A stretch of DNA of 64,000 nucleotides. Source: Selenomonadaceae bacterium (lineage in GTDB: Bacteria > Bacillota > Negativicutes > Selenomonadales > Selenomonadaceae). The DNA is taken from contig JAFXTD010000027.1 in the NCBI GenBank assembly GCA_017535925.1, positions 62,001 through 126,000 of the forward strand, given 5' to 3'. Of the stretch, positions 4,872 to 47,449 are shown one piece after another. The position numbers and the translations under genes were made by a program. The notes under the pieces were generated by a model that made no database searches, was not told the origin of the DNA, and saw only the letters and a program-made list of their open reading frames with translations. Numbering within the stretch: the stretch's first letter is position 1; each line of letters begins with the position of its first letter.

Positions 4872-7175
4872 TTATCCCATTTGTGCTTGATGAAGTTTGG
4901 CGTAGACGCCGTTTCGTTTCATAAGTTCCTCGTGCGTGCCTGCCTCGATTATGCGCCCTTTGTCGATAACGATAATCGCGTCACAACCTCTGACGGTCGA
5001 CAGGCGGTGCGCAATCATAAGCATCGTGCGCCCGCGAGAAATCGGTTCGATATTGCTCATGATAATATTTTCGGATTCGTAGTCGAGGGCGGAAGTAGCC
5101 TCGTCGAAAATCAAAATGCGCGGGTTGGAAATCAAAGCACGGGCAATCGCAATGCGTTGACGCTGACCGCCGCTCAAAAGGGAGCCGCGTTCGCCGACGA
5201 AAGTATCATAGCCGTGAGGGAATTGGCTTACGAATTCATCTGCGCCCGCCAAACGCGCCGCTTGCACAACTTCTTCGTGAGTTGCGTTCGGACAAGCAAT
5301 GCGGATATTTTCTTCAACAGTGCCGCTGAAAAGTTTGCTGTCCTGCAAGACGACACCTATTTGACGACGCAACCAAGCCGGCTCGACTTGCGCAATGTCC
5401 ACGCCGTCAATCAAAATGCGTCCCGTTTCGGGAACGTAGAGTCGCTGAATTAATTTCGTTAGCGTCGACTTGCCTGAACCCGAACGACCGACGATACCGA
5501 CTTTCATGCCGGCGGGAATTTTTATGTTGACGTTGTCCAAAACTTTTCCGGCTTCTGGCGAATAACTGAACGCCAACTTCTCCAATGCAATTTCTCCGCG
5601 CAAGCTCGGCAGTGTCGTGCGAGAGGGATTGAACGTCGGCTCTATGTCTTCGTCCATGATGTCCGCGAGCCTTTCCATTGAAACACGAACTTGTTGGAAG
5701 TGTTGCCACTGATTTATAAGGCGCATAATCGGCGCGATTAACTGCCCGGCAATCATTTGGAACGCAATCAATTCGCCGACGGTTATTTCGCCTTCCATAA
5801 CGTAGTAAGCACCAATCCACAGAATGACGAGGTTAAATATGCTGAAGAAGAAAGTACCGATTGAATTGGCGACGTTTGCCAAATTAACGACGGAGAGATT
5901 GGCATTGACCAAGCGGGCAAGCATTTCTTCATAGCGGTGGATAAAATTGTTTTCGACGCTTGAGGATTTGACCGTGTGAATGCCGGTTATCGTTTCGATA
6001 AGGAAGGAGCGGTTTTCGGCACCGATTAAAAATTTGTCGTTAATCAAGCGTTTGAAAATCGGCGCGACGATTAAATTCAACAGCACGAACGCAGGAATCA
6101 TAATCAATACAACGACGCTTAGGATTCGGCTGTAATAGAGGAACATGACGGCGAAATAAACAACCGCGAAGACGATATCCAAAACGATTGTAATGCTGTT
6201 ACCCGTCATGAACGAACGCAACGTCTCCAATTCGCCGATACGTGAGACAACGTCACCGACTTGCCACTTTTGAAAGTAGCTTAGGGGCAAAGCGGTTATG
6301 TTCTTGAAAAGCCGCGAACTCAAAGCCACGTCCATTTTGTTTGTGATGTTCATAAAGAGGTAGGAACGCAACGCCAGCATCCATTGTTGGAAGAGCGTGC
6401 AGACGACCATGCCCAAAACCAAGATGTCGAGCGCGTCCGCTGCCCTGTGCACCAAAACTTTATCGATAATATTTTGCACAAAGAAAGGTGACGCCAAGCC
6501 CAAAATCTGCAGGACAAGCGACATGAACAAAACGCTTTCGAGGAAAGGCACGTACTTTGAGACGACGGGAATGAACCACTTGAAACCGAATTTGCTTTTT
6601 TTCCTGTCGAGTTCAAAGCGGCGCGTGAAGAGAATCGCGTCGCCCGTCCAGTCCATCAAAAGTTTATAGCGGTCGACTTTAACGGGCTGTTGAGAGAAGG
6701 CGGGATCCATCACGTAAATATTTCCCTCGCGTATCGTCGTAATGACAACGCTTCTGCCCGAATGCAACTTAATCAAAACGGGATAGACGAGCTTGTCCAA
6801 GTCCGCCTCTTTCAAGCCTTCGTACTTGCGCGCCTTCAATTTCAATTCGCGGGCAGCTCTTACCAAAGTCGTAAAGTCGACGGCACCCGTTTCCAAAACG
6901 TAAGCGCGTTCGAGCTGGCGATAATCGGCGGGGATGTTGTAGTATTTGGCAATGGCGATAAGGCAGGCAAGACCGGTATCAATGCCGTTGACGACGCCTC
7001 CGTCTTCGGATTGTTGTTGAACATTTGTATCGAGTTTGCCGGGCTTTGCTTGTTCGGCAGGAACTTTTTTGATTGGAACTTTGCCGAGAGCCTGTCCGCC
7101 CGATTTTTGCGGAGCCTGTCCTTTGGAAGGCACCATGCTTTTATCGTCGGGAGTTCGATTTTTGTTTTCCGCCAT
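4872..7175 (-). CDS. Type I secretion ABC transporter with degenerate C39-like domain
   Basis: This 767-residue protein has the HlyB/LapB-type layout. A Pro/Lys-rich N-terminal extension (1-55) precedes a C39-like domain (about 60-185), an ABC membrane domain (about 205-495) and an ATPase domain (about 525-765). The ATPase has Walker A GRSGSGKS at 563-570, LSGGQ at 667-671 and DEATSALD at 691-698. In the C39-like domain the catalytic Cys position (normally in D-C-G) is Thr67 in IDTGLAC, and the His position is Arg141. It should therefore bind or recognise substrate without cleaving it, as HlyB does. It forms an operon with the HlyD-like gene (3 bases apart) and a second ABC gene. The substrate is unknown. 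Confidence 0.9.
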   Translation of the reverse strand: MAENKNRTPDDKSMVPSKGQAPQKSGGQALGKVPIKKVPAEQAKPGKLDTNVQQQSEDGGVVNGIDTGLACLIAIAKYYNIPADYRQLERAYVLETGAVDFTTLVRAARELKLKARKYEGLKEADLDKLVYPVLIKLHSGRSVVITTIREGNIYVMDPAFSQQPVKVDRYKLLMDWTGDAILFTRRFELDRKKSKFGFKWFIPVVSKYVPFLESVLFMSLVLQILGLASPFFVQNIIDKVLVHRAADALDILVLGMVVCTLFQQWMLALRSYLFMNITNKMDVALSSRLFKNITALPLSYFQKWQVGDVVSRIGELETLRSFMTGNSITIVLDIVFAVVYFAVMFLYYSRILSVVVLIMIPAFVLLNLIVAPIFKRLINDKFLIGAENRSFLIETITGIHTVKSSSVENNFIHRYEEMLARLVNANLSVVNLANVANSIGTFFFSIFNLVILWIGAYYVMEGEITVGELIAFQMIAGQLIAPIMRLINQWQHFQQVRVSMERLADIMDEDIEPTFNPSRTTLPSLRGEIALEKLAFSYSPEAGKVLDNVNIKIPAGMKVGIVGRSGSGKSTLTKLIQRLYVPETGRILIDGVDIAQVEPAWLRRQIGVVLQDSKLFSGTVEENIRIACPNATHEEVVQAARLAGADEFVSQFPHGYDTFVGERGSLLSGGQRQRIAIARALISNPRILIFDEATSALDYESENIIMSNIEPISRGRTMLMIAHRLSTVRGCDAIIVIDKGRIIEAGTHEELMKRNGVYAKLHQAQMG

Positions 7176-8542: not shown

Positions 8543-10678
8543 CTACCCTCTGCTTTCTTGCTGGTCGTAAAGATAACGATAGAGCCCGCCGAGTGCAAGC
8601 AGTTGTTCATGCGTGCCGCTTTCGACGATTTCGCCCTTGTCGACAACGATAATTTTATCGCATTTACGCACCGCGCTCAATCTGTGCGCAATGATAAGCA
8701 TTGTCCTGTGTTGACCGATTGCTCCCATGTTGTTCAAAATGATTCTTTCGGATTCATAGTCGAGGGCGGAAGTAGCCTCGTCGAAAATCAAAATCGGCGG
8801 GTTGGCAAGAAGAGCTCTGGCTATTGCAACGCGCTGACGTTGACCGCCGCTCAAAGAATCGCCGCGTTCGCCGACTTTGGTGTCGTAGCCTTCCTTGAGT
8901 TCCAAAATAAAATCGTGAGCACCCGCAAGACGCGCCGCACGAATAATTTCATCCATGGTGGCAGTCGGGCGGCTGATTGCAATGTTGTCGCGGACGCTTG
9001 AGTTGAAAAGGTAATTCTCTTGCATGACAACGCCGATTTGGTCGCGCAGCCAAGAAAGGTTTGCTTCGCGGGTATCAATGCCGCCGATTACGATTCGTCC
9101 TTCTTCGGGTATGTAAAGATTTTGAACGAGGTTTGTCAATGTCGACTTGCCCGAACCCGAACGCCCGACGATACCGATTTTTTGTCCCGGCAAGACGCTT
9201 AAGTTTATATTCTTCAAGACAAGCGGCAAGTCGACACGATAGCGGAAGGAAACGTTGCTTATCTCAATCCCACCGTCAATTCGATTGTCGCCGCGCTTAC
9301 CCATTTCAACAACAACAGGTTCCATCGGCGTATTCAAAATATCTCCGACAAGATTGAGCGCGATTTTGACCATGATGATTTCCCACCACATCATCAAAAG
9401 CGTCGTTAAAGGTGCCGTTGCTTGTCGAGAGATCATTTGGAAAGCGATTAATTGACCGAGAGTAAATTCGCCGCTCATGACCATGTGACCGCCGTACCAG
9501 AGAATTGCCATTGATACCAACGCGTCAACGATGCCTCTGTAACCGCCGATAACCAATCTGAACTTTGCAAACTCAAACGTTCTTCGGACATAACGCGCAA
9601 TCAAATTTTCCCATCTGTTGACGAATTGCGGTTCCACTGCCAAAGCCTTGACTGTTTCGACGTTTGTAATTGATTCAACCATGAAAGATTGGTTTGCCAC
9701 ACGTGCGCTCCACAAGCCTTTGAGTTTCTCACGCATGATTGGCAGAGCCCAAAGTTGAACCAAGTAACACGGCAGTATGGTAAGCGCGATTAAAGTCAAA
9801 GGCACCGAATACCACAACATGAACGCGATAAACACGACCGAAAAGAGCACGTCGAGTATCGTTGTCAAGCCGGGCCCCGTCAAAAAGTTGCGAACACGTT
9901 CCAGCGATTCGACACGCAGAAGCATTTCACCGACGCGCCGCCGTTCATAGTAGGGCAACGGCAAAGCAATTAAATGACGGAAAAGGCGTGTTCCCAAAAT
10001 GGCGTCGAGTTTGTTTGTCGTGTGGTTCAGTATATAAGTTTTCAGCGCGGTGAGAAGTGACTGCATGAAGAAGAACAAAACCATACTGACGCCGATAACC
10101 GTCAATGTCGAGTAGCCGGCGTTGCCGATAACTTTATCGATAATGACCTGCGTGATAAGCGGGAAGACGATTCCCATTACTTGAAGAAAAAGCGTCGCCA
10201 TAACGACTTCAAAGAGCGGTTTCTTGTAGCGGGCAACGACTTTCAAGAACCAATCGACGTTGTAGCGTTTCTTGAAGTAAGCCCAGCTGAAAGACGCCGA
10301 GAAAATCATCAGCTCGTTTGTCCAGCTTTCCAAGAATTCTTTCATTGGAATAGCTTTCGGCTTGTTTTCTCGCGGGTCAATCGCCAAAATGACTTCTTCG
10401 TTCATGCTGCCGATTGCGATATACGCGCCGTCATTCATTTTGGCTATGACGGGATATTCAATCTCGCGCATTTCGTCGACGGTCGGGCGAATCACCGTAG
10501 AGCCGATTTTGTATTTTTTCGCCAGCTTCTTCAGTTTGTTCCAATCAAGTTGCTTATCTGTTTCCGGGTTTTGGTCATAAATTTTTTGCAAATCCTTCAC
10601 GCCGAAGTGCTGCAAAATTTTTATGATAGAAACTATCCCTGTTCGATCCTTGGGCGGCGAAGATTTATTTTCGGGCAT
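8543..10678 (-). CDS. Type I secretion ABC transporter, second copy, with degenerate C39-like domain
   Basis: This 711-residue paralogue begins the operon. The N-terminal domain (about 1-125) is C39-like but contains no cysteine, and the His position is Ala85 in the segment DGAYIAIG, so it cannot be a protease. The membrane domain spans about 150-430. The ATPase domain follows, with GRSGSGKSTL, LSGGQRQRVAIARAL and DEATSALDYES. Two different ABC proteins flanking one HlyD suggests a heterodimeric exporter or two exporters sharing an adaptor; the sequence cannot decide between these. The start has the usual MPENK and is followed by an open frame. Confidence 0.88.
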   Translation of the reverse strand: MPENKSSPPKDRTGIVSIIKILQHFGVKDLQKIYDQNPETDKQLDWNKLKKLAKKYKIGSTVIRPTVDEMREIEYPVIAKMNDGAYIAIGSMNEEVILAIDPRENKPKAIPMKEFLESWTNELMIFSASFSWAYFKKRYNVDWFLKVVARYKKPLFEVVMATLFLQVMGIVFPLITQVIIDKVIGNAGYSTLTVIGVSMVLFFFMQSLLTALKTYILNHTTNKLDAILGTRLFRHLIALPLPYYERRRVGEMLLRVESLERVRNFLTGPGLTTILDVLFSVVFIAFMLWYSVPLTLIALTILPCYLVQLWALPIMREKLKGLWSARVANQSFMVESITNVETVKALAVEPQFVNRWENLIARYVRRTFEFAKFRLVIGGYRGIVDALVSMAILWYGGHMVMSGEFTLGQLIAFQMISRQATAPLTTLLMMWWEIIMVKIALNLVGDILNTPMEPVVVEMGKRGDNRIDGGIEISNVSFRYRVDLPLVLKNINLSVLPGQKIGIVGRSGSGKSTLTNLVQNLYIPEEGRIVIGGIDTREANLSWLRDQIGVVMQENYLFNSSVRDNIAISRPTATMDEIIRAARLAGAHDFILELKEGYDTKVGERGDSLSGGQRQRVAIARALLANPPILIFDEATSALDYESERIILNNMGAIGQHRTMLIIAHRLSAVRKCDKIIVVDKGEIVESGTHEQLLALGGLYRYLYDQQESRG

Positions 10679-13221: not shown

Positions 13222-15444
13222 TTACCAAGTCCTCCTCAACATGATTGACGCCGTAACGTCTTTGTCATTTTTCCCGCGTTGAAGTTCAGCCTCGCCGCCG
13301 ACAAACCAGCCGCGTGCAAATTCACTTTCGCCGCGCACGCTGAACACAAAATGAGTTTTATCACGTTCCTTGCGGAGTCTGTAGCTGCTTGAAGTGTCGC
13401 CCTCGTAGCTGATTCTCAAATCGGGGTCTGCGCCCGTGAAGCCGCGTTTGACACCGAACTTGAACCCGAACATTCCCGTTTGATAGTAGCGTTTGAAATC
13501 AATTCCTGTCTGCGCCGCAAAGTAAGTGTTGCTGTCGGATTCGACATGCTGATTGTAAATGCCCGCGCCGTGTTCGTGATAAGAATTCTGTTTGAGATGC
13601 GAGGCTTGAAAATTTATAAACGGGCTGATGTTCCAAGCTTTATTCGGCGTGAGGTTGTATTTGTATTCGCCGCCGATTTCAATGATACGGCTTTTGTAAT
13701 TGGCGTTCGTCGTGAGTCCGAGCGAAGAAATTCCTCTGTGCAAAGAGTTTCGAAGTTGCCCGCCGTTGACATAAAAATAAACGTCGCTTTGGCGATTGTG
13801 ATAACCGGCGTAGAGACCGAGCCGAGTATCGTAGACCGTTGCCCGCGAAGAATCCGCTCCGTAACCGATTGTCCCGTAGGTCGCAAAAATTCCCGCGCGA
13901 AAATTTTTTCCAAAAGGTCTGTCATAGCCGCCGACAATCGCGCTGCCGTGATAATCCGTGCCGCCGCGCAAGCTTCCCCAGTTCTTCATGTAGTTGAGCC
14001 AGAAATTATTTTCTTGCGAAGAGGGAACTTCAACCTTAACCGACATTTCGGGCGAATCGTCTTCACCGTCAGCGAACTTCACGGGATGAATATTCACGTC
14101 AACAAAATTCGTTGCAAAGACTTTCGAGACACGCGAGGAAATCATTCTGTCGACGACGGTATTTTGTTGAACGACACTCATAATCTGCGCGGCGTCGTCC
14201 GAGCCTATTTCATCCAAAGCTCTTTTTGCTTCGGGCGGCGCGAGGTTATAAAGTTTGCGCATTTCGTCTTGCCGTTTGCTGTCGAGCTTTTCAAACATTT
14301 TATTCATTGCGTCGAAGGTCTCCGACTCTTTGAAATCAAATGCAACCGTATTGTTCGCCTCGTGCGTCGTGACGGTCAAAGTATTTCCGACAATTTCGCC
14401 TGTGGCATTGAGCATTGCGGAAATCGGGACGGGATTATTTTTATCGTTTTTAATGTTGCCCGTGATTGAATCGGCGATTAAAACGGTGGCAGTTTCATTC
14501 GGCAACAAGCTGTCTGTCGTGACGGTCGAGCCTTCGACATTTGCAACTCCTTTGACGATAATCGAACCTGCCGAGCCGCCGCTGACTTTTTGCAAAACGC
14601 CGTCGGAAATCAAATCGCCGTTAATGATTAAATTCGTATCGGGCGAGCCTGCGCCAATCGTTCCGTGATTGATAAAAGTGCCTGCAGCCGCTCCGTCGAT
14701 ATTGTGCAAGTTGAAAGTTCCGCCGAAAAGTTTTGCTCCGAATCCGATATCGACACTCAAGACTTCAGCCGCGCCCGAAAATTTCATTGTGCCGTTGTTG
14801 ACATGCAACTTGATGCTTTCCGCGCCCGAAATGTTTCCGCCGTATGAAAAGTTTGTGTTCACGTTGAGATGCGTCACGCGTTCGGGAAAAAATTTGTTCG
14901 CGTCGAGAGCCGACCAATTTGAAATGATATTGCCGAAAATTTGTGCGCCGTCGTTAATGTTTATGTTCCTGACGAAAGAATTTCCACCGATATAAATTGC
15001 GCAGTTGCCTCCCGCGAGAATTCCCGACAAGTTAAAATTGTTGACAAGCGCGCCGTTAAATCCTTCGCCGCCGAAATTGAATTCGACACCGTTGCCCGCC
15101 GCATAAATATTTCCGTCGACGTTGAGAGTGTGTCCTTGCCCCGAAGAAATCAAAATGCCTCTGCCGAATTGCCCGCTTGAAGTGATTGACCTGCCTTGCG
15201 GAATGACGATTAAATTTTGGGAACCGTCAACGATAACGGCGACCGCTCCTTCTTCCGACAAAAAAATATTTTGGCTCGGTGCGACAACGGCATTTGTGCT
15301 CGAAACGTGCAAGCTTTCCGACGAAAAATCTTCATTCGACTCCGCCGAAGAAACTTGTCCCGTCATCGCGCTCAAGCCGAAAACTGTAGCGACAGCCAAG
15401 AAGAGACGACGCTTTCCAAGATTTTTATCGTTGCTCATGTCCAT
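13222..15444 (-). CDS. Autotransporter outer membrane protein (type V secretion)
   Basis: The start was set at 15444, where AGGGAG precedes the ATG, giving about 740 residues. A signal peptide (KRRLFLAVATVFGLSAMTGQ, cleaved near VSSAES) is followed by a Gly/Asn-rich passenger of beta-helix type to about residue 470 (many NGxI, GTI and GNI strands). The C-terminal beta-barrel occupies about the last 260 residues (NFWLNYMKNWGSLRG to ASIMLRRTW) and ends in an aromatic residue, as outer-membrane barrels do. The passenger has no visible protease triad, so an adhesin role is likelier. The gene heads an operon with a two-component system. Confidence 0.88.
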   Translation of the reverse strand: MDMSNDKNLGKRRLFLAVATVFGLSAMTGQVSSAESNEDFSSESLHVSSTNAVVAPSQNIFLSEEGAVAVIVDGSQNLIVIPQGRSITSSGQFGRGILISSGQGHTLNVDGNIYAAGNGVEFNFGGEGFNGALVNNFNLSGILAGGNCAIYIGGNSFVRNININDGAQIFGNIISNWSALDANKFFPERVTHLNVNTNFSYGGNISGAESIKLHVNNGTMKFSGAAEVLSVDIGFGAKLFGGTFNLHNIDGAAAGTFINHGTIGAGSPDTNLIINGDLISDGVLQKVSGGSAGSIIVKGVANVEGSTVTTDSLLPNETATVLIADSITGNIKNDKNNPVPISAMLNATGEIVGNTLTVTTHEANNTVAFDFKESETFDAMNKMFEKLDSKRQDEMRKLYNLAPPEAKRALDEIGSDDAAQIMSVVQQNTVVDRMISSRVSKVFATNFVDVNIHPVKFADGEDDSPEMSVKVEVPSSQENNFWLNYMKNWGSLRGGTDYHGSAIVGGYDRPFGKNFRAGIFATYGTIGYGADSSRATVYDTRLGLYAGYHNRQSDVYFYVNGGQLRNSLHRGISSLGLTTNANYKSRIIEIGGEYKYNLTPNKAWNISPFINFQASHLKQNSYHEHGAGIYNQHVESDSNTYFAAQTGIDFKRYYQTGMFGFKFGVKRGFTGADPDLRISYEGDTSSSYRLRKERDKTHFVFSVRGESEFARGWFVGGEAELQRGKNDKDVTASIMLRRTW

Positions 15445-15605
15445 TGAAAAATTCTCCCTGCTGATTTTTTCTGCTGACGTCGGAAAATATTTTTGACAGC
15501 TTACCATAAACGCGTGAAAAAATAAAGGCAATACGATTATTTTAATCGCCCGCCGAAAAATTTTTAATGAACTTTAATCTTGCGGGCAAATTCGTTTGGA
15601 AAATG

Positions 15606-39123: not shown

Positions 39124-40838
39124 ATGTTCCTCAACTTGTGAACGCGCAATTTGTCCAGCCAATGCCAAACCTTCAGCTGAATCTGCGCGAAGTCTCCTAC
39201 GCGGCGAATAATTATCCTGTCGTAAATGTCCGTGCCGATAACTTCAGCCGTCACGACAAGTTCGGTCGCCTTGCCGAAATTCAAAATCAATTCTCCGCCC
39301 GTGACAACTTCCGTCAAAATATTTTCGTCGCCGGCGGTCGCAGTGATTTTGACGGGCGCGTCGACTTGAAAACGATAGAGCCCGATAGAAATTTTATCGA
39401 CCTCGTAGGGCACGGCGTAGCGATAAATAAAATTGTCGTTGACCGTGAGTTTGATAAACGGCGGAATTTTATGAAGCGGTTCGGCGTTCGCGAAGAATTC
39501 GACTTCGGCAAGCCCGAAATTTTTTCCGACGTCGATTGCAGAAATTTCGGCGCGTGTCACGAAAATTTTTTCCGTGTCGATAATCAACGGACGCCCTCGA
39601 CTCGGAAGAGTCGCGCTGAAATTTTTTACATTATCTGAAGAAATGCCCGCCTTGTCAATGACGACTTGAGCATCGGCAAGTTCGAGGCGCAAAGAAATTT
39701 TTGCGGGCGCATCGTCGAGGAGGTTGCCGTAAATCACGATACGCCTCACTTGAATTGCCTCTTCCCACTCAAAAAAAATTTTCTTGCCTTGCCAAAGATG
39801 ATTTTCAATTTGAGCGGGCGTCGCGTTAATGTCGTTCGTGTCAATGATTTTGAAGTCGCGAACTTTGCTTGCGTCGCCGGAAGTCGCCGTGACCTTCGCG
39901 GAAAAAGTTTGGCTGTCGGTGCGTCGTTCAAAAAAAATTTCGTCGGAATTCAAAATGCGCAGGGCGTTCCATTGGTTGCGTTGAGACTTGTGAGCGAAAA
40001 TCGCTTCGGCAACGGGATTATCCTTCAAAATCGTTTGGCTGTTCATGACGGGAAAGCGCACGCGATTTTCCCAAACGTAATTGGCGCGGTCGATAAAATC
40101 AAAATCGTAAGTGTCGGTCTCGCCAAGTTTTGGTTTCTTCGTGGCGCGGAGGTTCGTCGCATAAAAATCGGCGGCGGCTGTGAAGGCGGTCGCGTAAGCA
40201 AATTTTTTGTAAACTTCGGGATGATAATCGTTGCGTTCGGATAAAATTTCGCCCAAAACTTCCTCGAACAAAATCGATAAAGCGCGGTGGTCTTGGTGGC
40301 TGTCGAAGTCAACGCAGAAAATTATATTCGCACGAAGTTCGAGGAGCAAACTTTTCAAATCGCGCTTGAAATTTTTTCGGGTGTAGGAGCTGTGTCGCCC
40401 GAAAATTTTTTTTGCATAATCGACAAAATTTTTTGCGGCGTAGGTTTCGACGTGACCGGCGGGCGATTGCGTCGGCTTATCGGAAAGTTTGTGACCGTCG
40501 CCGTAGCCCAGAAAAATAATTTTGTCTTGAGGCACGCCCAAAATTTTCAGCGCGTCGACTGCCTCTTGAGCTCTGGTCTCTGCCGAAACTTCAAAGTCGC
40601 CGTTCGTCGAATAGGCAACGAAAATTTCCGCCTTCGCCGCCGCCAAAGTCAAAATCATATTCCCCGCAATGTTAATCTCGTCGTCGGGGTGCGGTGCCAA
40701 AATCAAAACACGCGTCCCGAAATAATTTTTATCGAAGAAAGAATTGCCCGCCGTCAAAATTTCTTCAGCTTGAGTATCTTCGCCGACCAGTTCAAAAATT
40801 CCGCAAGCCTCCGATTCAAAAATTTTCTTGTCGTCCAC
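39120..40838 (-). CDS. PIG-L family N-acetylglucosaminyl deacetylase-like protein
   Basis: The start was set at the GTG at 40838, with GAGGTG upstream, giving about 572 residues. The N-terminal 240 residues are a PIG-L (LmbE-like) deacetylase with the zinc motif LILAPHPDDEINIAG and the second motif DFDSHQDHRALS. The remaining 330 residues are beta-rich and without recognisable motif, possibly carbohydrate-binding. PIG-L enzymes remove acetyl groups from N-acetyl amino sugars. It lies upstream of the YrbL-like gene and divergent from the beta-lactamase gene, in a polysaccharide region. The substrate is unknown. Confidence 0.82.
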   Translation of the reverse strand: MDDKKIFESEACGIFELVGEDTQAEEILTAGNSFFDKNYFGTRVLILAPHPDDEINIAGNMILTLAAAKAEIFVAYSTNGDFEVSAETRAQEAVDALKILGVPQDKIIFLGYGDGHKLSDKPTQSPAGHVETYAAKNFVDYAKKIFGRHSSYTRKNFKRDLKSLLLELRANIIFCVDFDSHQDHRALSILFEEVLGEILSERNDYHPEVYKKFAYATAFTAAADFYATNLRATKKPKLGETDTYDFDFIDRANYVWENRVRFPVMNSQTILKDNPVAEAIFAHKSQRNQWNALRILNSDEIFFERRTDSQTFSAKVTATSGDASKVRDFKIIDTNDINATPAQIENHLWQGKKIFFEWEEAIQVRRIVIYGNLLDDAPAKISLRLELADAQVVIDKAGISSDNVKNFSATLPSRGRPLIIDTEKIFVTRAEISAIDVGKNFGLAEVEFFANAEPLHKIPPFIKLTVNDNFIYRYAVPYEVDKISIGLYRFQVDAPVKITATAGDENILTEVVTGGELILNFGKATELVVTAEVIGTDIYDRIIIRRVGDFAQIQLKVWHWLDKLRVHKLRNI

Positions 40839-40890
40839 GCTTTCACCTCGCATAAAATTTTACTATAATCAGCTTCGGAGGTTGAAGCCA

Positions 40891-41736
40891 ATGAAAAAAC
40901 TTTTGATTGTCGCAATTATCTTATTGACATTTTTAACCGGTTGCAAGACGCGAACCGCCGATTTGAATTTCCGCGAACTCGAAACGAAATACAACGCGCA
41001 GATTGGAGTTTACGTCCGCGATACCAACGACGACAGCGAAATTGCTTACAACGCCGATGAACGATTCGCTTATTGTTCGACGCATAAATTTTTGAGCGTC
41101 GGCGCGCTCCTTCAACGTAAGAATCTCGACGAACTCGATAAGAGGATATTTTTTTCGGCGGAAGAAATTTTGCCCTTCTCTGCGATAACCAAAGCGCACG
41201 TCGACAGCGGCTTGACCCTTGCCGAAATTTGCGAAGCGGCATTGAGAATCAGCGATAACACCGCCGCCAACTTGGTGCTTGAGGAATTGGGAGGCATTGC
41301 GGCGTTCAGGGAAAGCTTGCGGGCAATCGGTGACGACGTAACCGAACCTGCGCGGCTCGAATTGGAACTGAATATTTTCTCGCCCGACAGCATTGAAGAT
41401 ACAAGTACACCACGACAGCTCGCGAAGGACTTGGAACTTTATCTTTTGGGGGACATTTTGAGTGACGAGAAAAAATCTTTGCTGGCGAAGTGGATGAGCG
41501 ATAACACCATAACCGACGACCTCATAAAAGCCGGCGTCCCGCAAGATTGGAAAGTTTTGGATAAAAGTGGCGCGGGCATTAATTACGGAACGCGCAACGA
41601 TGTCGCAATCATTTTCCCGCCGAATAAAAAGCCGATTGTCGTTGCGATTATGACACGTCGAAACGAAGAGAGCGCACGATTTGACAACGCCTTGATTGAA
41701 GAAATTGCCCGAATGATTTTCACCTCGACGCGATAA
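40891..41736 (+). CDS. Class A beta-lactamase, probable lipoprotein
   Basis: From the ATG at 40891, with GGAGG upstream, the product is 281 residues. It has a lipoprotein signal with lipobox LTGC (Cys18). All class A motifs are present: Ser63-x-x-Lys66 (STHK), Ser121-Asp-Asn (SDN), the omega-loop Glu157 with Asn161 (RLELELN), and Lys225-Ser-Gly (KSG). The stretches ITKAHVDSGLTL and DTSTPRQLAKDL resemble BlaZ-type enzymes. It should hydrolyse penicillins at the cell envelope. It ends overlapping the converging glycosyltransferase gene by 17 bases. No regulator (blaI/blaR or ampR) is adjacent. Confidence 0.9.
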   Translation: MKKLLIVAIILLTFLTGCKTRTADLNFRELETKYNAQIGVYVRDTNDDSEIAYNADERFAYCSTHKFLSVGALLQRKNLDELDKRIFFSAEEILPFSAITKAHVDSGLTLAEICEAALRISDNTAANLVLEELGGIAAFRESLRAIGDDVTEPARLELELNIFSPDSIEDTSTPRQLAKDLELYLLGDILSDEKKSLLAKWMSDNTITDDLIKAGVPQDWKVLDKSGAGINYGTRNDVAIIFPPNKKPIVVAIMTRRNEESARFDNALIEEIARMIFTSTR

Positions 41737-42893: not shown

Positions 42894-42928
42894 GAAAAAA
42901 CCCTCCGACATAAGCCGAAGGGCTTTTT
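42894..42928 (-). terminator. Terminator after double-glycine peptide gene 1
   Basis: Minus-strand arms CCCTTCGG and CGGAGGG (one wobble pair) enclose CTTATGT-like loop sequence and are followed by TTTTTT. It is nearly identical to the terminator at 43235. Confidence 0.75.
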
Positions 42929-42948
42929 TAGCTTGTGATGCGAAAATT

Positions 42949-43143
42949 TTAATACAAACTATGATTTTTCGCATTATAGATTGGGTTGTTGTTTTGGAAG
43001 ACGTTTTGTTGAGCTGGAAATTCTTTGTCGTTAATTTTACAATCCCCGGGCCAACTACCGCCCGCGACCTCGTCAAGTTCCTCATCGCTAAGCTGTTCGA
43101 GTTGCTTATTGATTTTTTTAAGATTTTCCTCACGTGTTGCCAT
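42949..43143 (-). CDS. Double-glycine leader peptide 1
   Basis: From the ATG at 43143, with AAAGGAG nine bases upstream, the product is 64 residues. The leader ends in LSDEELDEVAGG, the classic double-glycine processing site preceded by an acidic helix. The predicted core is 35 residues (SWPGDCKINDKEFPAQQNVF, ending NAKNHSLY), Asn-rich, with one cysteine. Peptides of this type are exported and cleaved after Gly-Gly by C39-bearing ABC transporters. No modifying enzyme is adjacent. It is one of three similar monocistronic genes. Confidence 0.8.
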   Translation of the reverse strand: MATREENLKKINKQLEQLSDEELDEVAGGSWPGDCKINDKEFPAQQNVFQNNNPIYNAKNHSLY

Positions 43144-43204
43144 ATTATCAGTCTCCTTTCTGTTTTCTGAAGCTTGTACGTTCAAAATCCGATTTCGTTA
43201 CAAA

Positions 43205-43233
43205 GTATAACAAAAAAATTTTTTCACTGTCAA
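43205..43233 (-). promoter_or_regulatory. Sigma-70-type promoter of peptide gene 1
   Basis: TTGACA is followed after exactly 17 bases by TTATAC, and then by a TGTAACGAAATC box also found before the peptide 2 gene. Confidence 0.75.
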
Positions 43234-43234
43234 C

Positions 43235-43269
43235 GAAAAAATCCTCCGACATAAGCCGAAGGATTTTTG
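43235..43269 (-). terminator. Terminator after double-glycine peptide gene 2
   Basis: Minus-strand ATCCTTCGG and CGGAGGAT arms are followed by TTTTTT, and the next promoter begins three bases later. Confidence 0.75.
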
Positions 43270-43289
43270 TTGCTTGAGTTGAAAATTTT

Positions 43290-43640
43290 TTACTTACCGA
43301 ACTGCGCGTTGATATGTTTCCAGGCGTCTTCGCGGCTGACCTGCTTGCCGTCGATAAAATATTCATTTGCTTTGGATGTTTTCATCAAGTCGCCAAAAAT
43401 GCTGCCGTCGTCTTTGATTGTGACTCCATATTTCGAAAAAGCATTGCGCAGATTTACGAAACCTTCATGGTTGAGGATACCAATGCCGGCCAAGTCATTT
43501 TCGAAAATTTTTACGCCAAGTTGTTCAAATGCTCGTGCATCGTTATAACTTTCCGCGAAAGTGCCGCCCGCCACGTTGTCGAGTTCCTCGTCGCTCAAGA
43601 TTTCGTCCTTCAAGATTTTTTCCGTTGTCACTTTTATCAT
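43290..43640 (-). CDS. Double-glycine leader peptide 2 (long core)
   Basis: The 116-residue product begins MIKVTTEKILKDEILSDEEL and reaches the Gly-Gly at residues 25-26 (DNVAGG). The remaining 90 residues form a polar, Phe- and Gly-containing core without cysteine (TFAESYNDARAFEQLGVKIF...). The leader is almost identical to that of peptide 3 and closely related to that of peptide 1. Such a long core is beyond most bacteriocins and might be a small secreted protein. It has its own promoter and terminator. Confidence 0.78.
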   Translation of the reverse strand: MIKVTTEKILKDEILSDEELDNVAGGTFAESYNDARAFEQLGVKIFENDLAGIGILNHEGFVNLRNAFSKYGVTIKDDGSIFGDLMKTSKANEYFIDGKQVSREDAWKHINAQFGK

Positions 43641-43701
43641 TCTCCTTCGGTCAAAATTTTTTTATATCCTTTATACGTTAGGATTTTGATTTCGTTACAC
43701 A

Positions 43702-43729
43702 TTTTAGCAAAAAATTTTCCTCCGTCAAC
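43702..43729 (-). promoter_or_regulatory. Sigma-70-type promoter of peptide gene 2
   Basis: TTGACG is followed after 16 bases by TAAAAT, then by a TGTAACGAAATC box and AACGTATAAAGG, which recur upstream of the other peptide genes. Confidence 0.65.
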
Positions 43730-43730
43730 G

Positions 43731-43764
43731 AAAAAAGCCCCGTCGATTTGTATGAGGCTTTTGG
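43731..43764 (-). terminator. Terminator after double-glycine peptide gene 3
   Basis: Minus-strand GCCTC and GGGGC arms (one wobble pair) with a loop of about 15 bases are followed by TTTTTT. The peptide 2 promoter begins two bases later. Confidence 0.65.
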
Positions 43765-43780
43765 TTTGCATTTCGAGCTT

Positions 43781-43972
43781 TTAAAAACCGAAGGCTACAA
43801 CTCTTGCGGGCGGAATGAAGTCGCCGATAACGTTTGCCTGCACGAAATTGTTTTCATTTTGTTTGAGTAAAATTTCTCTTGGAAGTCTGATTCTGACTCC
43901 GCCCGCGATGTTTTCAAGTTGCTCTTCGCTCAAGATTTCGTCCTTCAAGATTTCTTTCGTCATTGTTATCAA
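43781..43972 (-). CDS. Double-glycine leader peptide 3
   Basis: The 63-residue product starts MITMTKEILKDEILSEEQLE and has its Gly-Gly at residues 24-25 (NIAGG). The predicted core of 38 residues (VRIRLPREILLKQNENNFVQ, ending PARVVAFGF) is cationic at first and hydrophobic at the end, a pattern that would suit a bacteriocin. AAAGGAGG precedes the start. Unlike the other two, it follows the GT9 gene with only 57 bases between and no TTGACA-type promoter, so it may be read from that operon. Confidence 0.78.
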   Translation of the reverse strand: MITMTKEILKDEILSEEQLENIAGGVRIRLPREILLKQNENNFVQANVIGDFIPPARVVAFGF

Positions 43973-44029
43973 CCTCCTTTGCGTTTGATTTTTTCTTTCT
44001 GTCCCTTATACGTTGCTTGAAAGATTTTG

Positions 44030-46274: not shown

Positions 46275-46303
46275 CTGCCTCGAATGTTCGGGGCTTTTTT
46301 TTA
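46275..46303 (+). terminator. Terminator after vapD
   Basis: Arms CCTCGAA and TTCGGGG with a two-base apex are followed by GCTTTTTTTT. A related-strand gene ends within it. Confidence 0.65.
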
Positions 46304-47449
46304 TTGTCGAATAATTTTTTCGAGCCGCCTTGCAAAATTCACGGGCGAAAAATCTTCACCCGCTGCTTGAAGATTTTTTTCATACGTCGAAAAATTTTTG
46401 TCGAAGTCGTTGATAAAAGTTTCGAGGACGCCGGCGAGGTCGTTGAGGTTGCCGCTTTGAAAAGTTTCGCCGACGCGGTAGAGGTCGAAAACTTCGGGAT
46501 TCATATCGTCACTTGCAACGACGGGTTTGCCGAAGCCGATCGCCGTGAAAAGCATTCCGCCCCAATGATAACGATAGCGCGGCGCGGAATACGGCATCAA
46601 AAGTGCGTCGACATTCATAATCGCCTGCTGCCATTCCGCTCCGATTAAACCTTTGTGCAAAAAACTCAAGCCCTCGACGCCGCGATATTGTTCGATAATT
46701 TTTTCAAAGTCCTCCGAGTCTTCCGCGTGCATTGTCGAACCTTGAACCAACAACTCAACCTGCCGCGTGTATTTGCCTTTGAGATAAACCTCAAGCAAGC
46801 CGCGCAGATTTTTTTCACGACGATACTGCCCGAAGAATCCGATTTTTAATATCTTGGAATTTTCATTCCTAATTCCTAATTCCTCATTCCTAATTGTTAA
46901 AAGGTCGCGGGCGGTGTAAGTCGGAGGATAAATCGTGAAAATATTTTCGCGCCGCTCGCCGAAAATCGAATCGCCGAAAGTCAACACGACCGGCTTGATA
47001 TTTTTGTTCGTCGAAAGTTTTTCCGCTTCCGCCAAAAATTTCGGAGCCTCTTTCGGATTGATTCCGTGCAAAATAAAAATCAGCGGCACGGAAATTTTTT
47101 TTAAGTCGCTGTAATTTAATGAGCGCAAATATCTGTAAGTCGAAGTCGGGACAATCAGCGCGTCGAATTTTTTTTGAGAGAGCAACAGTTGGCTGTACCA
47201 ACGTTGCCGATTAAATTCGCGTCGAAGGGAAGCCAAAAGTTTTTTCCAGCCGCGCGAATTTGTGTAAGTCACGGCATCGCCCTTGAGCCTCGTCACGGGT
47301 GTTTGATAATCGAATTGGAACGAAAAATTTTCCGGAACGTAAAACTCGACCTCGTGACCGAGAGCTTTGAACTCCTCGACCAAAATCCTGTCAAACTCAA
47401 CCTCGTGACCGCCGGGCGTCATTATGTTTTCAAATATCGCAAGCTTCAT
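46301..47449 (-). CDS. GT4-family glycosyltransferase with repeat-encoded linker
   Basis: The 382-residue product has a GT-B fold. The N-terminal half starts MKLAIFENIMTPGGHEVEFD, and the donor half has LLMPYSAPRYRYHWGGMLFT then AIGFGKPVVASDDMNPEVFD. Between them the stretch LTIRNEELGIRNENSK is encoded by tandem ATTAGGA/ATGAGGA heptamers, in frame, at the junction of the two domains. The start overlaps the VirK/YbjX-like gene by 20 bases. The gene is otherwise intact, so the insertion appears tolerated. Confidence 0.82.
   Translation of the reverse strand: MKLAIFENIMTPGGHEVEFDRILVEEFKALGHEVEFYVPENFSFQFDYQTPVTRLKGDAVTYTNSRGWKKLLASLRREFNRQRWYSQLLLSQKKFDALIVPTSTYRYLRSLNYSDLKKISVPLIFILHGINPKEAPKFLAEAEKLSTNKNIKPVVLTFGDSIFGERRENIFTIYPPTYTARDLLTIRNEELGIRNENSKILKIGFFGQYRREKNLRGLLEVYLKGKYTRQVELLVQGSTMHAEDSEDFEKIIEQYRGVEGLSFLHKGLIGAEWQQAIMNVDALLMPYSAPRYRYHWGGMLFTAIGFGKPVVASDDMNPEVFDLYRVGETFQSGNLNDLAGVLETFINDFDKNFSTYEKNLQAAGEDFSPVNFARRLEKIIRQ
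46865..46897. repeat. Heptanucleotide repeat array inside a glycosyltransferase gene
   Basis: About five copies of ATTAGGA or ATGAGGA (minus strand) keep a seven-base period and leave the reading frame open. Confidence 0.85.

Follow-up and report, generated by a model that had tools for sequence, protein, structure and literature searches.

What are three small genes with nearly identical double-glycine leaders doing between two glycosyltransferase genes? The question is posed by a 64,000-nucleotide stretch (hereafter the window, G000:C24:62001-126000) of a 2.59-Mb draft genome of a Selenomonadaceae bacterium (G000, the own genome), in which the short genes P3, P2 and P1 follow one another on the minus strand, each with a ribosome site. 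P1-P3 probably belong to a dispersed, co-regulated family of small secreted proteins that are controlled by an extracytoplasmic function (ECF) sigma factor and exported by a transporter of the NHLM type. This view builds on features established by sequence comparison: a common leader, a common upstream element, a link between element and leader gene, covariation of the element with clades of the sigma factor, and an NHLM exporter with an intact C39 cysteine. The original prediction, made from the letters of the window, overlooked the sigma-type promoter, the linked ECF sigma factor and a recurrent middle core of about 86 residues.

The leader family, its upstream element and its cores

The leaders of P1-P3 are 22-29 residues long and end in LS(D/E)E(E/Q)L(D/E)x(V/I)AGG. 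A regular expression for the leader matched three times in the window, at P1-P3, and not once in 200 first-order simulated windows, confirming the earlier claim of three small genes with near-identical double-glycine leaders; the pattern GTNGCNGGNGGN, by contrast, was uninformative (94 sites in the genome versus 84 in a reversed control). A profile of the three leaders gave 15 matches in the own genome at E<=10, corresponding to 14 genes on 9 contigs (three on C24, four on C40, and one each on C11, C25, C44, C45, C51, C57 and C74); the fifteenth match (E 5.8) covers a further part of a leader already counted. The three lowest-scoring genes are weak (C11, E 0.0015; C44, 0.020; C45, 0.039), though those on C44 and C45 also have the upstream element described below. 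With a profile of the own leaders and those of three relatives, matches at E<=0.01 were obtained in 54 of 66 same-genus genomes (a count that includes the own genome), with up to 31 per genome and also in genomes without the TGTAAC pattern introduced below. The prediction was in part right, with one leader family, many products, a common exporter probably located elsewhere and a home in Negativicutes, and the leader-profile search of genome and relatives that it proposed gave the counts above. It also held that absence of the leader from relatives would argue for chance frames: 12 of the 66 genomes have no match, whereas 54 do.

Alignment of the upstream regions revealed TGTAAC(G/A)AAATC-N9-ACGTATAA, some copies altered, in 13 of the 14 leader genes, about 30-50 nt 5' of the start codon. 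Searched as TGTAAC-N16-CGTATAA with up to two mismatches, this element has 13 sites in the own genome and none in the reversed control, and 12 of the 13 precede leader genes (12 of the 14). The thirteenth (C56:6072) precedes a 63-aa open reading frame (ORF) that contains MSLEELDYVAAAGND and ends in LEELDYVAAAGND (VAAAG). Neither such a leader nor the element occurred in simulated windows. ECF promoters generally have AAC at -35 and CGT at -10, as stated in a passage of PMC4153023, and the own-genome element satisfies this rule, with fixed spacing.

Upstream of leaders in relatives we read two alternative forms, CTTAA(T/C)-N16-CGTATAA and TGTCAT-N16-CATATA, one site having a 14-nt spacer; one element site is identical between a Quinella 1Q7 contig and the same-genus genome G004, which may point to Quinella as the genus. 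The link between element and gene extends to five other genomes, from which we took 60 sites: for the first form, TGTAAC, every one of the 32 listed across G005, G008 and G022; for the second, CTTAAY, 8 of 9 from G028; and for the third, TGTCAT, 20 of 21 from G030. One site runs past its contig end, leaving 59 assessable. A leader-type ORF follows within 330 nt at 56 of these 59 (first form 30/31, second 8/8, third 18/20), compared with 7 of 360 positions drawn at random from own-genome loci, which include one with family genes. Fifteen of the 59 sites (4, 4 and 7 by form) were already known from the shaping of the patterns or from reading sigma loci; among the previously unseen sites, 41 of 44 precede a leader-type ORF (26/27, 4/4 and 11/13 by form).

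We compared the cores of 99 different leader peptides, a biased sample drawn from loci collected as best matches. Single-linkage clustering (phmmer E<=1e-3) placed 65 of them, including the P2 core, in one cluster and left those of P1 and P3 as singletons. The core lengths originally predicted, 35, 90 and 38 residues, are correct; the idea of three cores all without relatives was dropped, the P2 core clustering with 64 others. The family has the consensus TxxETxxDxxxlxkrG...G..ykDxGG...NxYxxkxGxxitreeaw, with a median of 86 residues, net charge -1 and GRAVY -0.72 (n 65), and across the bacterial family a 22-core profile found it in 87 of 189 genomes, spanning 12 of 30 genera; 48 of these genomes are among the 66 of the own genus. 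Pfam gave no match at E<=1 for the three members of this family that were tried, nor for the C25 core. The predicted model of P2 (14 sequences; mean pLDDT 71.8, leader below 50) arranges the core as helix-helix-strand-helix-strand-strand-helix; a PDB sequence search with the core alignment reached a best E of 0.15, and Foldseek against PDB with this model of moderate confidence a best E of 1.4, with none at E<=0.001. For this core family, the modelling favours small folded proteins rather than membrane-piercing peptides.

These properties bear on a conventional explanation, namely that P1-P3 are ordinary class II bacteriocins that by chance are located far away from the genes for their immunity and export. 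The leader type fits it, as does the exceptional C25 core, which is hydrophobic and glycine-rich (GRAVY 1.11), and NCBIfam returned nothing beyond weak matches to the leader, the best for all three peptides being to the CTB family bacteriocin NF038167 (27.1, 21.0 and 24.9 bits, all below the 32-bit cut-off and spanning the leader and some core residues). However, the class II models PF10439, TIGR01847 and TIGR03949 gave listed matches for P1 and P3 that are all below cut-off and none listed for P2, the main core family is hydrophilic, and the P2 core is modelled as a folded domain; we consider class II bacteriocins unlikely.

An ECF sigma factor and an NHLM exporter

The stop codon of a 181-aa ECF sigma gene (G000:C56:6099-6641) overlaps the thirteenth element site, and the protein is of the ECF kind by TIGR02937 (128.4 bits against a cut-off of 42.9). 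Among the 66 genomes, 36 carry the TGTAAC pattern, slightly loosened and with at most one mismatch, and 45 have a sigma match at E<=1e-30. In 27 genomes the sigma is a close ortholog (E<1e-80, identity of 72% or more), and every one of these has at least one TGTAAC site; the other 39 contribute nine genomes with the pattern, four of them with one or two sites. The CTTAAY form was found in all seven genomes whose complete sigma is 57-62% identical versus 3 of 59 others, and the TGTCAT form in all four third-clade genomes (G026, G030, G033 and G048) versus 2 of 62 others.

A sigma tree of 55 rows, from which the 111-aa fragment G032b was excluded, supports the three clades at 100/98, 84/77 and 100/99, the third consisting of five rows from four genomes. 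Of seven rows labelled as third-clade sigmas, the other two, G030a and G032a, were placed outside that clade by the tree; these genomes hold another sigma paralog. Twelve alignment columns separate the clades (27, 6 and 4 rows, two rows excluded), and residues 160 and 164, in the last helix of the sigma factor, are different in all three; from its position, we take this helix to be the one that reads the -35. With the 16-nt spacing constant, the hexamer at -35 changes with the sigma clade, as does the -10 sequence in one of the clades. Three clades thus appear with three -35 forms, a strong covariation in sequence, albeit one that is not independent.

The same data speak to the possibility that the element is instead an operator or a leader-RNA site for some other regulator, with transcription starting from a sigma-70-type promoter just 5' of it and the peptides still forming one exported family. 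Seven of the 14 own members, and two of the three window genes, do have sigma-70-type boxes directly 5' of the element, so the element could be an operator. Against this, the boxes are absent from 6 of the 13 element-bearing own members, including P3; by eye, A-T runs stand 5' of the element whether or not a member has the boxes; and the fixed spacing persists while the hexamers shift with the sigma clade. An operator therefore seems improbable, and we continue to favour control by the ECF sigma factor.

Encoded next to the sigma gene is a short protein of about 60 aa with a conserved DFSxFSKVKxSLL helix and a leader-like end, MSLEELDxVAAAGN, without the Gly-Gly pair. It was found within 700 nt of the close sigma ortholog in 24 of 27 cases; of the three where it was missed, one is at a contig end. 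According to a profile built from nine such proteins, it adjoins 42 of 83 sigma genes in the loci examined, a set that includes some contigs twice as named and unnamed loci; it follows the gene in 40 cases and precedes it in two (G028 and G034). Its sites are G000:C56:6072 and the sigma loci L112 and L143-L168. This VAAAG protein is possibly an anti-sigma factor, a signal or a substrate. On the pattern of FlgM in flagella, the VAAAG protein might couple sigma control to secretion as a leader mimic, an anti-sigma factor that also docks on the NHLM exporter, where a free exporter would draw it off the sigma factor or export it and thereby switch on the peptide genes. We regard this scheme as a long shot, but if true, the leader mimic would unite ECF control, the peptide exporter and the exporter's substrates in one feedback loop.

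Which transporter would export the peptides? The C39 peptidase family is represented at three places in the genome, two in the window and a third at G000:C24:4015-6219. The window's two ABC transporters were rejected as exporters of P1-P3, being of the HlyB type and, by reading without alignment, lacking a cysteine at the C39 position. Similar ABC matches, of about 490 bits, occur in many same-genus genomes among the matches listed, and an autotransporter beta-domain protein (window 13222-15531, minus strand; PF03797 E 2.1e-25) is encoded near these type I secretion genes. The third, ABC1, has an ATECGAAS motif with the C39 cysteine and lies about 96 kb from P1-P3 on the same contig; the original observation that no transporter stands beside the genes is accordingly right for adjacent positions, but an NHLM exporter shares their contig. 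ABC1 belongs to a locus of five genes (TolC family, adaptor, HlyD, ABC1 and ABC2) that begins at a contig end and whose HlyD, ABC1 and ABC2 pass the NHLM models TIGR03794 (240.3 bits, cut-off 156.2), TIGR03796 (978.7, cut-off 853.3) and TIGR03797 (745.6, cut-off 709.4).

A scan of named genomes with ABC1 returned 74 relatives, most of them titled ruminant Selenomonadaceae or Selenomonadales, and one distant archaeal ABC match; identities are 83% in Quinella sp. 2Q5, 85% in Quinella sp. 1Q7 and 74% in Schwartzia succinivorans DSM 10502. At the relatives' exporter loci, which are of uneven lengths, a sigma homolog (E<=1e-8) was present in 28 of 74, a leader peptide (E<=0.05) in 20 and either in 36, an adjacency that links exporter, sigma factor and peptides. 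In Schwartzia succinivorans, for instance, the NHLM locus holds candidate leader peptides (E 0.016-0.4) together with a sigma gene that is 42% identical. Two contigs titled Candidatus Riflebacteria (L069 and L079) encode an NHLM ABC1 73-74% identical to the own one, by mis-binning or transfer. Separately, Nif11-like leaders followed by a core with a CFI-box-CTERM domain were seen near the NHLM exporter of Schwartzia-like genomes (L067, L068, L102 and L110), the domain being recognized by NF041770 in the one tested (L067, 47.8 bits against a cut-off of 40) and by eye in the other three loci.

An NHLM exporter raises the prospect that P1-P3 are ribosomally synthesized and post-translationally modified peptides (RiPPs) of the NHLP/Nif11 type, modified by enzymes encoded at other places in the genome. 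NHLP/Nif11 precursors and their NHLM exporter were described by Haft et al. 2010 (PMC2887384), and, going by passages of that paper, they share several features with the present system: the three exporter proteins exceed their cut-offs, the leader end is similar (LSDEELxxVAGG) and some genomes have many precursors. In relatives, moreover, two co-regulated peptides with longer, Nif11-like leaders lie behind two of the promoter forms (L234 in G022:C39 and L242 in G028:C17; TIGR03798 E 4.1e-6 and 5e-4, both below cut-off), a link between the short leaders and the Nif11 kind. In contrast to NHLP/Nif11 precursors, however, the leaders here are short and fail TIGR03793 and TIGR03798 (P1 scored 14.3 bits against 32.3 for the Nif11 model and 13.2 against 50.9 for the NHLP model, P3 12.3 against 50.9 for the latter, and P2 was not listed), and here there is a link to an ECF sigma factor; the word "sigma" is absent from the main text of PMC2887384. 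The exporter locus, which starts at a contig end, includes no modifying enzyme in its five genes, and no genome-wide search for such enzymes was made; 58% of the 99 cores are without cysteine. Modified RiPPs seem improbable to us, and the preferred view remains that of an ECF-controlled, NHLM-exported family.

The three genes in the window

The coordinates of the peptide genes and of the features around them are collected in Table 1. Four neighbours were scanned as possible glycosyltransferases, and three match Pfam families of this kind (groups 1/4, family 9 and family 2), which upholds the surface-polysaccharide setting named by the original prediction; the fourth (46301-47449) had no Pfam match at E<=1e-6. 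No immunity gene was seen beside P1-P3, though no search aimed at immunity genes was made. A beta-lactamase-like gene (window 40828-41736, plus strand; Pfam Beta-lactamase2 E 3.9e-40) also lies in the polysaccharide locus near the peptide genes.

Table 1. Features of the window, in window coordinates.
Feature	Position	Strand	Remarks
P1, double-glycine peptide gene	42949..43143	-	64 aa; ATG start behind AAAGGAG; leader end LSDEELDEVAGG; core 35 aa
P1 element, TGTAAC-N16-CGTACAA	43174..43202	-	1 mismatch; pattern search
Sigma-70-type promoter match directly 5' of P1 element	43204..43233	-	11/12
Terminator-like hairpin and T run 3' of P1	42895..42929	-	by eye; terminator scan lists only an overlapping plus-strand hairpin
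P2, double-glycine peptide gene	43290..43631	-	113 aa; GTG start behind AAGGAG; leader end LSDEELDNVAGG
P2 core	43293..43562	-	90 aa; in recurrent core family; alpha/beta in predicted model
P2 element, TGTAAC-N16-CGTATAA	43671..43699	-	pattern search
Sigma-70-type promoter match directly 5' of P2 element	43701..43728	-	10/12
Terminator-like hairpin and T run 3' of P2	43236..43269	-	by eye; nearly identical to sequence 3' of P1; absent from scan list
P3, double-glycine peptide gene	43781..43963	-	60 aa; leader end LSEEQLENIAGG; core 38 aa
P3 element, TGTAAC-N16-CGTATAA	44006..44034	-	overlaps end of upstream heptosyltransferase gene
HlyB-type ABC transporters	4872-7175, 8543-10678	-	TIGR01846 over cut-off; HlyD gene between

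Weighing the evidence and its meaning

Besides the sigma-70-type boxes in half of the own members, a number of observations weigh against an ECF-controlled, NHLM-exported family. Two of the 14 own members look damaged, one with a stop codon within the leader (G000:C57:11702) and one apparently truncated (C44:22755), and the C11 leader gene is without the element. The exporter operon of the own genome has no element at up to two mismatches in the just 314 nt that lie upstream of it on the contig, and an NHLM ABC1 over cut-off is present in 46 of the 66 genomes, against 54 with a leader; ABC matches at E<=1e-100, in 65 of 66, include HlyB-type paralogs and were not used for this count. The third promoter form (TGTCAT, CATATA) has neither AAC nor CGT and falls outside the ECF rule, and reversed controls gave 2, 5 and 0 matches overall for the TGTAAC, CTTAAY and TGTCAT patterns. 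Three of the 27 genomes with a close sigma have a single TGTAAC site (G038, G055 and G058); conversely, G018, G021, G050, G052 and G061 have 6-10 TGTAAC sites each and no sigma match at E<=1e-30, a list in which G018 is 98% complete and has 24 leader matches beside its 9 promoter sites. G032, with a contig-cut sigma fragment of 64% identity, has no CTTAAY site. Finally, the sigma clade and the element each track the kinship of the species, which makes their covariation not fully independent. That the genes are functionless chance frames or decaying repeats, as the damaged members and the repeated cassette structure might suggest, is scarcely credible given that leader and element are absent from simulated windows while 54 of 66 genomes have leader matches and 87 of 189 have the core family.

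If the favoured view is right, transcription of the peptide genes by the ECF sigma factor would start from the element, and half of the members would have another promoter, of the sigma-70 type, directly upstream of it. NHLM ABC1 would then cut after Gly-Gly, the core would pass through the HlyD and TolC partners out of the two-membrane cell, and the released core, for P2 a predicted small folded alpha/beta domain, would act outside. Competition among rumen bacteria is a plausible role for the cores, with a probability that we place a little short of even; by analogy with the EbfG proteins discussed below, a role at the cell's own surface or in biofilm is conceivable but appreciably less so.

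The pneumococcus, a one-membrane cell, offers a first comparison. Its rtg locus resembles the present system in combining one C39 transporter with a set of co-regulated double-glycine peptides and differs in Rgg/pheromone control and in being one locus, as described in passages of PMC7018657. EbfG1-4 of Synechococcus elongatus are small secreted proteins with the transporter PteB and a demonstrated role in biofilm (PMC4997328); they are alike in being several small double-glycine proteins with a cysteine-peptidase transporter, a likeness of description rather than of sequence, and, unlike here, the passages on them mention no sigma factor. In the microbisporicin system, an ECF sigma factor, MibX, likewise drives genes for an exported peptide product, whereas there the genes form a single cluster, the peptide is modified, an anti-sigma factor (MibW) is involved and the precursor operon is driven by MibR, not MibX (passages of PMC4973701). 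The single parts are known already: NHLM exporters accompanied by several precursors (PMC2887384), a lantibiotic under ECF control (PMC4973701) and a transporter with co-regulated double-glycine peptides (PMC7018657). Among the titles and abstract openings listed for open-licence PMC articles, none reported ECF sigma control of NHLM or double-glycine peptides in Selenomonadaceae; one listed article, on methanobactins (PMC3621798), contains both Nif11 and ECF sigma. The main text of the Quinella genome paper (PMC9585023) contains neither "bacteriocin" nor "sigma factor", and the combination of a scattered set, a sigma-covarying promoter and a core family that Pfam does not match was not found among the listed titles and abstract openings of the open literature.

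If our reading is correct, a core family that Pfam does not match is thereby defined in 12 of the 30 genera searched; cultured relatives, Schwartzia succinivorans among them, offer a place to test the reading. The promoter would evolve in step with its sigma factor, and members of the family would be findable from the promoter alone. More generally, one ECF sigma factor of a rumen genus would be dedicated to exported small proteins whose genes are scattered, with 15 leader matches in this genome and as many as 31 in another.

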